The notes beneath the pieces were generated by a model that saw nothing but the letters and a program-made list of their open reading frames with translations, was not told the origin of the DNA and did no database searches. Positions 56,407-59,807 of a stretch of 64,000 bases of DNA are shown here, piece after piece. The position numbers were made by a program, and so were the translations under genes. The first letter of the stretch is position 1. Every line of letters begins with the position of its first letter. Origin of the DNA: Lacimicrobium alkaliphilum (GTDB lineage Bacteria > Pseudomonadota > Gammaproteobacteria > Enterobacterales > Alteromonadaceae); assembly GCF_001466725.1 (NCBI RefSeq), contig NZ_CP013650.1, forward strand, positions 4,092,001 through 4,156,000. Direction: 5' to 3'.

Positions 56407-56870
56407 CAAGGCGTACTCCTGGCAAAATGTTTTCAAGTAGGGTTTCAAAATTGAGGCGTGGCGCGGATCATACATTATTTAAGGGCTGCAGAGGTAGGGT
56501 TGCGGTCAAAAAAAACGCAAAACTGAAAGACTTTCAGGTTTTTGATCAAATACTTTCAGTATTTTTGCATAACTATCCGTTGTCATCAGCCGAGAACCCG
56601 CTATCTGAAAGAAGATAACGGCATCCGCCAACCAATAACTATGCAACAGATAAAATGGCTTTAAGTCATAACCAACATCTATAGATATCTGGCTGATATC
56701 AGCCCAATTGGACCAGCTAAAAACAAGGGTTATCTGCCATCTGAGGACAAGATTGGTGATTGGATGACTTCTCTATTGATTACTGCAGGTCCTGGCACTG
56801 GCATTGTGTGGCAGTTGCGGAATTTTGATTTGGATCTGACCCTTTTTATTTTCAGCAACTGGAGGGAAAA
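56407..56870. other. Non-coding stretch upstream of pckA
   Basis: About 460 bp with no gene I can support. It must contain the pckA promoter on the minus strand. The sequence becomes AT-richer beyond about 56500 and leads into the IS3 remnant; no left end of that insertion sequence was recognised. Confidence 0.5.
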
Positions 56871-56963
56871 GTGAAACAATACATTGGTACGTTCTACAAC
56901 CGGAAGAGACTGCACAGTAGCCTGAACTATCTTTATCCGGTACAGTTTGAAAATGCCGCCTAA
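56871..56963 (+). pseudogene. IS3-family transposase (OrfB) C-terminal remnant
   Basis: The last 30 codons of an IS3-type integrase-core transposase survive: YIGTFYNRKRLHSSLNYLYP then VQFENAA and TAA. YNRKRLHSSL-x-Y-x-x-P-x-x-F is the classic end of these proteins. Upstream the frame reads only about 14 more codons before a TGA at 56826-56828, so the rest has been lost. Confidence 0.85.
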
Positions 56964-56972
56964 CAACAACGC

Positions 56973-56998
56973 GTGTCCGATTTATCGAGGGAACATCA
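56973..56998. mobile_element. Right end of the IS3-like element
   Basis: After the remnant stop, GTGTCCGATTTATCGAGGGA then ACATCA resembles IS3-family right terminal repeats (ending in ATCA, with reverse complement TGATGTTCCC). The next base begins an attC-like half site. Confidence 0.6.
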
Positions 56999-57059
56999 CA
57001 TTTACTCGCTGGCCTGCGGCCAACGCGCTCGCAAATGCCGTAAAGGCGAAACGTTATAT
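56999..57059 (+). mobile_element. Half attC-like site (attC1), left part missing
   Basis: CATTT/AAATG arms with an inner TGGCC-tgc-GGCCA hairpin, followed by GGCGAAAC and the R' core GTTATAT (57053-57059). It shares TTTACTCGCTG with attC2. The R'' half is absent where the IS end abuts. Confidence 0.65.
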
Positions 57060-57071
57060 GGAGTTCAAGTA

Positions 57072-57458
57072 GTGAGAAGGGCCTTAATCATTATTTTATT
57101 CTCTTTAGTCTTTTCAGGTTGTGCAACAACAGAACAAGAGAATGCTGAATACATGTGTTCCGATATCCAATCATGCGCTCAAAACATTATGCTGCGAGTA
57201 AGGGAAAAGTCACATTGGATATGTGACCAAAAATCCAATGATAAAACTGTTGTTGTAAAATCTACATTTTCAAAGTCTGGTGACTTAATATATATGAAGC
57301 TCAGTTCATCTAGTGGTGATAAGGAATTTGATACTGCAGCTCTCAATGCAGTAAAGGCCGCAGCACCTTTTAAGGAGCTAACTATGCTTAGCCCAAAAGA
57401 CTTTGAAGAGGTATCAGTCATAGACTTTAAATTTGTAGGCAACAAAGAAAGCAAATAA
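57072..57458 (+). CDS. Lipoprotein with TonB C-terminal-like domain (cassette gene 1)
   Basis: 128 residues. A lipoprotein signal ends in LVFSGC (Cys about 17). The C-terminal half (about 55-125) resembles TonB C-terminal domains: VVVKSTFSKSGDLIYMKLSS, SSGDKEFDTAALNAVKAAAPF, read as a dG-x-i then SSG-x3-lD-x-aA and PF pattern. It may bind an envelope partner; its role is unknown. GTG at 57072 with GGAG at 57060-57063 is the start. It fills the first gene cassette between attC1 and attC2, just 13 nt inside the cassette start, and is AT-richer than the core genes. Confidence 0.72.
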   Translation: MRRALIIILFSLVFSGCATTEQENAEYMCSDIQSCAQNIMLRVREKSHWICDQKSNDKTVVVKSTFSKSGDLIYMKLSSSSGDKEFDTAALNAVKAAAPFKELTMLSPKDFEEVSVIDFKFVGNKESK

Positions 57459-57467
57459 TGGATTACT

Positions 57468-57543
57468 CTCCATATAACAAGGCACTGCTACGGAAAATTT
57501 ACTCGCTGATGCTCCTAAATTTCCGCAGAGCGCGGCGTTAACT
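57468..57543 (+). mobile_element. attC recombination site of cassette 1 (attC2)
   Basis: R'' ATATAAC (57472-57478), stem CGGAAAATTT/AAATTTCCG with one extrahelical A (57491-57500, 57517-57525), CTGC/GCAG inner boxes, and R' GTTAACT (57537-57543). CTCCATATAAC here is the exact complement of GTTATATGGAG opening the cassette at 57053, as expected for an excisable cassette. Confidence 0.8.
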
Positions 57544-57546
57544 GTC

Positions 57547-57888
57547 ATGAATGCCAACATCCAACGATTTCTGGAGCTCGCGAGAGTTCACCCTACAACA
57601 GATTATGGTAACTCAACGAGCGTAAATGCTGGAAACCAAGCAGCCGACTCTATGAGAGAGTTGGCTTTGAAGTTTGTCGAGTCTGGTCGTGCCGATGATT
57701 TATTGAGTCTGCTATCAGATCGTTATGCTGCACCTTGGGTTGCATATAATCTTGCGGAGATTACTCAGATTCCCGAAGAACAAAAAAGGCACTGTATCTC
57801 GTTCATACAACACATTGCTGATGGGAGCAACATCGAATCAGTTGGGGCAGAAATCTGGCTGAGGGAGCGAGGGTATGGTGACAGTTAA
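57547..57888 (+). CDS. Unknown 113-residue protein (cassette gene 2)
   Basis: No family recognised. It is a small soluble, mainly helical, acidic protein (FLELARVHPTTDYGN, MRELALKFVESGRADDLLSL, YAAPWVAYNLAEI, EIWLRERGYGDS). The W-V-A-Y-x-L pattern and compact size are reminiscent of small immunity-type or cassette-borne hypothetical proteins, but this is not evidence of function. The ATG is ten bases into the cassette, and the TAA stop lies inside the R'' box of the trailing attC-like site, a layout typical of integron cassettes. Confidence 0.65.
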   Translation: MNANIQRFLELARVHPTTDYGNSTSVNAGNQAADSMRELALKFVESGRADDLLSLLSDRYAAPWVAYNLAEITQIPEEQKRHCISFIQHIADGSNIESVGAEIWLRERGYGDS

Positions 57889-57917
57889 CAAGTGACTGTA
57901 GTCGTACAAGGTTAACT
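57879..57917 (+). mobile_element. Short attC-like site closing cassette 2 (attC3)
   Basis: GACAGTTAAC (57880-57889) is the exact complement of GTTAACTGTC (57537-57546) that opens cassette 2, and an R'-like GTTAACT follows at 57911-57917. The 35-bp interval, with a small GACT-gt-AGTC hairpin, is shorter than normal attC sites, so it may be deleted or degenerate. 57918-58157 holds no supported gene. Confidence 0.55.
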
Positions 57918-58024
57918 AATACACAACATTTTATCTCAGCTAAAATCCGTTGACGATGCTGTAATCCAATCAACAGGGGAGAGACGTTGATCCAAGATTA
58001 TTCGACCCACTTTTTGACTTTTAT

Positions 58025-58046
58025 CAAACTTCCCAGCCAATGTTCG
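58025..58046 (+). repeat. 22-bp direct repeat, left copy
   Basis: CAAACTTCCCAGCCAATGT then TCG. It matches 58880-58901 at 21 of 22 positions, and the pair flanks the gene at 58158-58796. Confidence 0.7.
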
Positions 58047-58157
58047 GTCTTAGCTCAATACTGCCTGCCGAAACTGGCCCTTATCCCGTTGGCTGCCGAC
58101 TGCAGTCTTTATGCAGAATTCAAATCCTGCCCCCGGTCCTGCTTCTAAACTAATTAA

Positions 58158-58796
58158 CTACAGCTCTTTCTCGGCTATTAGTATTTCTAACTCTTGGATA
58201 ACCCTATCTATGTTTGGCTCATTATTAGCTTTCAACTGCTTAGAAAAGCTTAAGGCCAGCTCTAACTCTTCAATACTATGGTCTTTCCAAGGGTTTAAGC
58301 GTCTTTTAATATACATAACTTGTGAGTCTCTGCTGCCACTCTCTGCTGCTTTTTTATACCATAACTCAATTTTCTCTCGAACTGGCTTGATATACTCGTC
58401 ATAATCATCGTAGAGCCCGCTCTCAACGTCTCGACTATTAATCATACCATCAGGTTTGCCCGCCCATTTTGTTTTGGAATGACCAAATGCCATTTCTGTA
58501 GATTGTGCAAAGCGATACATAAAATCAGGCCCACCTGACTTAGCCATGTTCTCAAAAACTTGATACATGGCCGACGGATTATCAAAGGTTCCGAAATCAT
58601 GGTTCAGCTTCTCATAAAGTATAGCTTCTCTCATGCTCAAATCTTTATGCGCCGGCATAAAGCAGCTACCGATAATCATATCTGAGACTTTATTTTCGAT
58701 AGCATTCAAACAGGTTTGTTTTGCTACTGAAAAGAAGGGAGTAAGAATAAAAAATAAGGCCAATGTAATATTTGTAAATATATCGCTTCTTTTCAT
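58158..58796 (-). CDS. Secreted protein with Sel1-like motif, unknown function
   Basis: 212 residues with a signal peptide (about 1-25, FFSVAK-QT). The mature part is helical. WYKKAAESGSRDSQVMY (about 145-161) matches the core of a Sel1/TPR-like repeat, and two cysteines occur near the N-terminus (about 29 and 45). No family name is possible. It is clearly AT-richer than the surrounding housekeeping genes and is flanked by a 22-bp direct repeat, so recent acquisition is likely. ATG at 58796; the upstream AAGAAAGAT is a plausible ribosome site. Confidence 0.68.
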   Translation of the reverse strand: MKRSDIFTNITLALFFILTPFFSVAKQTCLNAIENKVSDMIIGSCFMPAHKDLSMREAILYEKLNHDFGTFDNPSAMYQVFENMAKSGGPDFMYRFAQSTEMAFGHSKTKWAGKPDGMINSRDVESGLYDDYDEYIKPVREKIELWYKKAAESGSRDSQVMYIKRRLNPWKDHSIEELELALSFSKQLKANNEPNIDRVIQELEILIAEKEL

Positions 58797-58879
58797 ATCT
58801 TTCTTCTAAACGCTTAATGATAAAAAGTGGCTGTTCTAATTCAGACAATGTAGCTCGCACCACATACAGCTAAAGCTAC

Positions 58880-58901
58880 CAAACTTCCCAGCCAATGTCC
58901 G
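58880..58901 (+). repeat. 22-bp direct repeat, right copy
   Basis: CAAACTTCCCAGCCAATGT then CCG, the partner of the copy at 58025. Confidence 0.7.
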
Positions 58902-58949
58902 CAATTTGCTTACTTCAGCTCTTGGCTTGGTTGGGCGAAATCATTATCG

Positions 58950-59717
58950 CTACCAAGATTGATGGTGATCGAGTTTGCTATCAAAAAAGTAGCCCTTTGA
59001 CTTATAAAATGCATTCTCAATAGTAGCTTCAGAATCGAAATATGCAGCAGCAAATGGCAAGAAGGCTAGTACGCCAAAGTATGGTGCCGCATCACCTTCT
59101 GGGATATATCCAACGTCATGTATCAACCAAGCGTTTATATCAATAAACATAAGTAAGATTGAAACAGAGTAACCGAAAAGTAATGATAGATAATGCTTGT
59201 ACCATTGGATCCTATCGAATACCCATAGGGTTACTGATAGCCGGGAAAAGATAAGCACGTATAAGAGATAGGCGAAAAGGGCCAGAGTGGCACCAATATC
59301 CACGTCTTCTGACAAGAAGATAAAGGCGATTCCTACAACACCGTTTAGAAGCAAACCGAGTTGACCTTGGCTGGCAAAAAACTGACCTTCGGCTGACACC
59401 TCCTCTGGCAATTCATTGACCACAACTAGACGTGGTTTCCCTTGAAATACATTATTCCTTTTTAAGTGTTTATCTGCGCTGTATTCAATAAAAGGGAACA
59501 ACAAATAAATTGCGAAGATAAAATCCAAGGCGGTTAGCCAGCGTAGGAACAATAATTTGTTATATTCACCACAAATAGAAAGAACGATAAGATCTACGCA
59601 ATCGTACGCAGGTATTGTCCAGATCTCATAGGTTATCCAAAGGAGAAGCCATCCAATGGCCCCCCTCCTCAACATTCTTCCTATAACAATCCTGGACGGA
59701 AGAGTCAGATTTTCCAA
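58950..59717 (-). CDS. Integral membrane protein of unknown function
   Basis: 255 residues with about six hydrophobic segments: near 20-35 (IGWLLLWITYEIW), 58-75, 120-135 (LLLNGVVGIAFIFL), 142-160, 178-192 and 215-235. No catalytic motif is visible and I recognise no family. The start is uncertain: TTG at 59717, or ATG at 59675, where AGGA is unusually close. The gene is AT-rich and sits in the pckA-hslO island on the same strand as both. Confidence 0.6.
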   Translation of the reverse strand: MENLTLPSRIVIGRMLRRGAIGWLLLWITYEIWTIPAYDCVDLIVLSICGEYNKLLFLRWLTALDFIFAIYLLFPFIEYSADKHLKRNNVFQGKPRLVVVNELPEEVSAEGQFFASQGQLGLLLNGVVGIAFIFLSEDVDIGATLALFAYLLYVLIFSRLSVTLWVFDRIQWYKHYLSLLFGYSVSILLMFIDINAWLIHDVGYIPEGDAAPYFGVLAFLPFAAAYFDSEATIENAFYKSKGYFFDSKLDHHQSW

Positions 59718-59807
59718 AATTCAAACATCCTTGATCGTGTCATTTCTTCTTCACATCAGCGTCTTCTTTGTACTGAAATAAAAAAGGCTGTATCCAAATT
59801 AGTCCTT

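Follow-up and report, generated by a model that had tools for sequence, protein, structure and literature searches.

Two gene cassettes and a truncated attC site between pckA and hslO of Lacimicrobium alkaliphilum: a probable integrase-placed cluster away from its integron

Introduction

Loot et al. 2024 reportedly described cassette insertion at attG sites. The insertion of cassettes at secondary sites is in print (PMC2426708), and clusters of attC sites lacking an integron-integrase are designated CALINs (IntegronFinder 2.0, PMC9024848). In the titles and opening abstract lines returned by one literature search on Lacimicrobium genomes, integrons were not named. Here, we analyzed a window of 64,000 nucleotides from the chromosome of L. 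alkaliphilum (positions 4092001-4156000 of a 4,378,835-base contig), in which an original prediction had proposed a pair of integron-type cassettes in the gap between pckA and hslO, near contig position 4149 kb. From the sequence comparisons reported below, we conclude that the two cassettes, together with a truncated third attC site, very probably constitute a CALIN that was placed by an integrase, cut by an IS3-type element, and probably left nearly locked. A CALIN is an already known kind of structure, and this one is partly broken; its significance is that cassettes residing away from an integron can be seen here in a natural, well-resolved example.

Results

The openings of both cassettes were complementary to the start of their own attC sites exactly where the original prediction had located them. 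The opening GTTATATGGAG of cassette 1 (window positions 57053-57063) had its perfect complement at 57468-57478, and the opening GTTAACTGTC of cassette 2 (57537-57546) had its perfect complement at 57880-57889; the pairing between opening and own R'' extended over 11 nt in the two cassettes alike. These two pairs were the sole GTT-starting inverted 10-mers with arm starts 300-600 bases apart in the 64-kb window, and 100 dinucleotide shuffles of the window contained on average 0.25 such 10-mers and 0.09 such 11-mers. A pairing of 11 nt was reached by none of 300 shuffled flanks for gene 1 and by none of 300 for gene 2. As a positive control, ten cassettes of the genome's own array showed pairings of 8, 9, 8, 8, 8, 8, 9, 14, 10, and 11 nt; as a negative control, pckA, hslO, and the ORF at 58158-58796 showed 0 nt, and the ORF at 58950-59717 showed 3 nt. 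On these limits, cassette 1 occupies 57054-57537 on the forward strand, from G|TT to G|TT, and is homologous to a cassette in the genome G205, and cassette 2 occupies 57538-57911 on the same strand, with a presumed right limit taken from the R' of attC2. The predicted distance of 10-15 nt between boundary and gene held for gene 2 (10 nt) but not for gene 1 (19 nt), and the stop codon of gene 2 was located inside R'', as had been claimed. In a separate consideration of the two ORFs as further cassettes, both were rejected on their pairing and on nearby model scores of at most 6.8 bits.

Gene 1 (57072-57458, forward strand) starts with GTG and encodes a protein of 128 aa, whose predicted TonB-C-like character was borne out by matches above the cut-offs to Pfam TonB_2 (33.1 bits, cut-off 22), Pfam TonB_C (25.6, cut-off 24.6), and NCBIfam tonB_Cterm (32.1 bits, cut-off 27.1); the product has a lipoprotein-type start with what we take to be a lipobox. 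Gene 2 (57547-57888, forward strand) encodes a protein of 113 aa with no match in Pfam, NCBIfam, or PADLOC, and a sequence comparison with solved structures returned designed proteins only. Gene 1 matched 6 of the 395 genomes of the family, including its own, with six places in the others, and gene 2 matched 3 of the 395, including its own, homologues with cassette ends being present in G117 and G456, as well as 2 of 394 genomes of the order, again including its own (a set that overlaps the 395). Each gene had one match in its own genome, i.e., no second copy, and neither was present in the two congeners, SS2-24 and X13M-12. Searches of plasmid records with both cassette proteins (tblastn) gave no match, and a pattern scan of genome contigs with protein 1 returned 43 stretches, none of them a relative.

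The homologues were also examined for end pairing, with flanks of 300 bases for L126, L127, and L170 and of 60 bases for the other loci. The pairing was 12 nt at L123, L124, and L125, 11 nt at L128, and 4 nt at L127 for homologues of gene 1, and 13 nt at L121, 9 nt at L170, and 3 nt at L120 for homologues of gene 2; L126, a further homologue of gene 1, paired over 5 nt and had attC matches of 22.4 and 12.2 bits nearby. Thus counted, the nine matches listed in other genomes comprised six with pairing of 9-13 nt, two with none, and L126 with its 5 nt.

To score attC sites, a covariance model (R1) was built from the aligned arms of ten attC sites of the own array, delimited by eye, with the variable middle omitted and no window sequence included. 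On these ten training sites, seven scored at least 30 bits, A10 scored 16.6 and A7 13.4 (partial), and A5 was not listed; 33 control loci totalling 384,054 bases yielded a single match at E up to 10, with 13.5 bits. The site attC1 (57472-57543, forward strand), which looks intact, scored 35.2 bits, with an E value of 7.4e-6 over 117 kb and of 2.8e-4 genome-wide, and folded on the bottom strand into a bulged hairpin of -11.4 kcal/mol. It resembled sites in 12 plasmid records at 79-94% identity, among them a site on pKAZ2 between a hypothetical gene and a gene named PhnO; hence, attC1-type sites stand behind other genes elsewhere. Phage records searched by blastn with 56999-57560 gave no match.

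The other two sites at the locus are incomplete or weak. The predicted architecture of attC2 (57883-57917, forward strand) was upheld in part: its R'' is well supported and it folds into a 7-pair R stem with a bulged 5-pair inner stem, but the whole site is short (35 nt), the fold is weak (-3.3 kcal/mol), and the model score is at the level of noise. In a search of 56.5-60.0 kb (3.5 kb, filters off), attC2 scored 9.4 bits (E 0.62) and the next match 6.8; this score means little, because the best match in the corresponding gap of SS2-24, also with filters off, reaches a noise level of 9.3 bits. Upstream of cassette 1, attC0 (56999-57059, forward strand) comprises the 3' part of an attC, with R' at 57053-57059 and the R''/L'' half missing. 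Although attC0 was not listed by R1 in the window searches, the 63 bases at 56998-57060 that span it were 90% identical to the own-array site A9, and it matched L. alkaliphilum X13M-12 at 96%, 94%, and 92% over 52-53 bases in three places, the best of which (96%) is on a contig also bearing the integrase gene of that strain. The original prediction would have been contradicted by the lack of an attC model match at all three sites; what was found was one strong model match, one weak site with a noise-like score, and one truncated site at 90-96% identity to known attC sites. In X13M-12, a contig of 3,741 bases (G002:C28) was observed to carry several attC matches and a stretch 94% identical to attC0. 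A search of 54.0-60.0 kb against Rfam (E up to 5) returned 12 matches, all below the gathering score. Scans of 56.6-58.2 kb found 3 promoter-like sites (3.5 expected) and 2 terminator-like sites (1.2 expected), each of them on the opposite strand.

The left flank of the cluster carries the end of an IS3-family element (56873-56998, forward strand), comprising the last transposase residues and the right terminus. A 30-residue piece of this remnant matched Pfam rve_2 at 24.5 bits (cut-off 22), and a 96% copy of this stretch elsewhere in the genome (3923645-3923770) ends at the same base, 56998. Together with the attC matches, these findings indicated that attC0 was cut by the insertion sequence and that its left half is gone; the truncated attC before cassette 1 further implied that the cluster once extended further to the left. 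About 49 bases to the left of the remnant (56807-56855) matched two places about 1.3 kb apart at 3584-3585 kb, in opposite directions, an arrangement resembling the termini of a further mobile element.

An integron integrase gene was sought elsewhere in the genome, as the original prediction had advised, and was found on the same chromosome with its own array alongside. The gene (contig 84256-85221) is full-length, encodes 321 aa with no internal stop, and matches the whole TIGR02249 profile at 455.3 bits (cut-off 265). Since the integrase search gave five matches in the genome and none inside the window, the claim that no integrase is present is true of the window but false for the genome. 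Neither intI nor attI stands beside the cassettes, so that the locus is not a complete integron. The main array is located to the left of the integrase gene in the opposite reading direction, with two more R1 matches further out. When 150 of 1645 first-look candidates were scored genome-wide, R1 gave at least 10 matches, four in the main array and six outside it, including this locus. Around the other five outside matches, at least four more orphan attC clusters were observed, near 617-619, 2306-2307, 1912-1915, and 2402-2404 kb, with 2, 3, 3, and 2 attC matches, respectively, each of at least 22.6 bits; the cluster near 2306 kb contains 636 bp at 96.2% identity to the array at 79358-79993, covering a cassette and its attC. 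With its full-length integrase gene, main array, and several orphan clusters, this genome could therefore be used for testing whether an integrase serves such clusters in trans. All six relatives searched gave R1 matches (E up to 1), and each also had a near full-length integrase match of 41-96% identity.

The gap between pckA and hslO was compared among relatives, the nearest named ones by hslO being Lacimicrobium sp. SS2-24 (87%) and L. alkaliphilum X13M-12 (94%). Among 21 hslO loci from named genomes, 17 had pckA downstream, and the spacing between the two matches was 199-485 bases in 15 of these; longer gaps were observed in Aestuariibacter sp. A3R04 (2.0 kb) and SS2-24 (5.4 kb). No empty gap with exact G|TT ends was found among these relatives, SS2-24 carrying another insert and the hslO contig of X13M-12 ending in the gap, with no pckA DNA found in that assembly. 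In place of the presence-or-absence comparison between G|TT boundaries that the original prediction had proposed, exact limits were obtained from the homologue of cassette 1 in another genus, described below.

The SS2-24 gap holds a different insert of 5.2 kb (locus L039, 2396-7568), in which blastn found no homology to 56686-59777 of the window. The gene next to pckA (L039 6971-7324) encodes 117 aa and belongs to a family present in 49 of 395 genomes, including SS2-24. Exact 12-nt end pairing was found in 3 of the 14 loci of this family that were read (L154, L159, and L161) and was lacking in 11; L159 and L161 look alike, and each has its gene flanked by attC matches on either side. SS2-24 itself no longer has exact pairing (3 nt), and R1 gives noise only there. 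The stretch behind the gene nonetheless aligned with the array attC sites A10 and A7 (none of 200 shuffles as good in either case) and reads like its counterpart in L151; of 20 comparisons of SS2-24 stretches, three exceeded a z of 2.5, none of them involving the stretch before the gene. Judging by these alignments, the 117-aa gene is likely a decayed cassette. An esterase gene (L039 6018-6896) was a candidate second cassette, with exact pairing of 4 nt. In both species, the cassettes are on the pckA side and in the same reading direction.

On the right of attC2, the sequence was similar to a segment beside hslO in X13M-12 (score 126.5, compared with a maximum of 92.5 in 200 shuffles); because the left end of this X13M-12-like segment is not sharp, no insertion edge is claimed there. 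The common segment, ACGTTGATCC ... CAAACTTCCC, lies at about 57966-58060 in the window and at about 2790-2870 and 4050-4110 of L038 in X13M-12. Part of it recurs on the far side of the ORF at 58158-58796 (58877-58901), these two being the only good matches in the own genome.

The closest comparison for cassette 1 was provided by the G205 homologue, from another genus of Alteromonadaceae, with 65% protein identity and a dN of 0.26 for the gene. In an unforced alignment, free to extend at least 300 bases on either side, the similarity began exactly at the G|TT boundary (57053) and ended at 57481, after R'' and AACAAG, with 299 identities in 433 columns, and a second alignment with the left end preset had the same right end. 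The 60 bases upstream scored 12, compared with a shuffled mean of 12.8, and the attC bodies were unrelated (13, compared with 15.7 for shuffled sequence). Unrelated flanks in relatives had been named in the original prediction as evidence against it; what we found is a homologue sharing the exact G|TT and R'' limits. The body of attC1 was identical at 57 of 60 positions to the pKAZ2 body behind another gene and also matched one in G016, and the G205 body matched an attC of a genus mate (z 19.4). Host groups tend to have their own characteristic attC types.

The 117-aa family offered a second set for this comparison. A usable TAAC anchor was found in 10 of 15 loci (L161 was omitted as a near copy, and L150, L152, L157, and L158 had none), with the caveat that L163 was anchored at a wrong TAAC and that L160 and L164 are not cassette-like. 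Over the 45 pairs, the gene had a mean identity of 0.67, the surroundings of R'' 0.72, and the attC body 0.47, compared with 0.44 for shuffled bodies; over the 21 pairs of the seven loci with a canonical R'', the values were 0.69, 0.88, 0.51, and 0.43, respectively. Body identity was at least 0.55 in 7 of the 21 pairs and at least 0.60 in 4, which counts against exchange. We put forward only tentatively, as a rather doubtful reading, that a cassette gene may be refitted with another attC hairpin, such that opening, gene, and R'' last while the body is swapped to the local type; because it is chiefly structure that is conserved in attC bodies, fast drift could mimic such exchange. The comparison of cassette 1 with G205 bears on how genes acquire attC sites. 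As a separate observation, attC bodies differed between homologous cassettes at G000:C1:2303000-2311000, L123, and L154, where R'' and the gene were kept.

Discussion

Taken together, the end pairing, the attC model built independently of the window, the near-identical attC sites elsewhere, and the cassette homologues in other genera confirmed that this is a real cassette pair, which may be either a remnant of a chromosomal array or a capture at a secondary site, as the original prediction had it. The idea that the resemblance arose by chance, the ORFs being ordinary intergenic ones and their inverted repeats a coincidence, could appeal to attC2, which is unconvincing by itself; it is contradicted by the attC1 model match, the controls, the end pairing, and the homologous cassettes with the same limits, and we consider it extremely improbable. 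In the history that we favor, the integron integrase of the lineage would have used attC recombination to place the cassettes at a distance from its attI, and an IS3-type element cut the leftmost attC, after which, if this order is correct, parts further to the left were lost. The cassettes would encode a TonB-C-like lipoprotein and a protein without family. Since attC1 looks intact, whereas attC0 is without its R''/L'' half and attC2 is diminished, the cassettes are probably close to being immobilized.

Three other histories were weighed, each of which accounts for part of the evidence. Each cassette might have been inserted separately by an integrase at a non-classical genomic site (attG), the gap being a tolerant hotspot that was used independently in two species. 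Such insertions have been published (PMC12901181, PMC12444791), the SS2-24 gap has a different cassette with no detected homology to this one, and non-cassette genes are also found in the gap. Nevertheless, a first insertion is described as leaving one attC, behind the cassette (PMC2426708), whereas cassette 1 has a partial attC in front of it as well, which indicates that the cluster was longer; we regard separate insertion as possible but somewhat improbable.

The gap might instead have held a foothold that predates the split of the two species, with cassettes exchanged by the distant integrase in trans. The location of the cassettes toward pckA in the two species, the mostly empty gaps of the outgroups, and the conserved CALIN positions in Xanthomonas (PMC12444791) are consistent with this history, which is nonetheless unlikely, given that no cassette or attC at the gap is common to the two species compared and that the attC sites of SS2-24 score as noise. 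Transfer of part of the main array to the gap through rearrangement or insertion sequences, with the integrase playing no role at the locus, would explain the IS remnants on the left and the resemblance of attC0 to main-array attC sites of the own genome and of X13M-12; genes 1 and 2, however, are single-copy in the genome and missing from two congeners, and this history appears quite unlikely.

Like the cassettes described at attG and secondary sites (PMC12901181, PMC2426708), those of L. alkaliphilum are located in ordinary genome sequence; they differ in the truncated attC in front, where a first insertion has its one attC behind. With the CALINs of IntegronFinder 2.0 (PMC9024848), the locus shares attC-bounded cassettes in a chromosome with no integrase gene nearby. 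The difference is that it has a single clear attC model match, compared with the at least two required by default in IntegronFinder 2, so that the tool might miss the cluster. The orphan clusters described in Xanthomonas away from ilvD (PMC12444791) likewise occur together with a resident integron and in recurrent places; those belong to another bacterial family, and at the pckA-hslO gap it is the place, not the cassettes, that the two species share.
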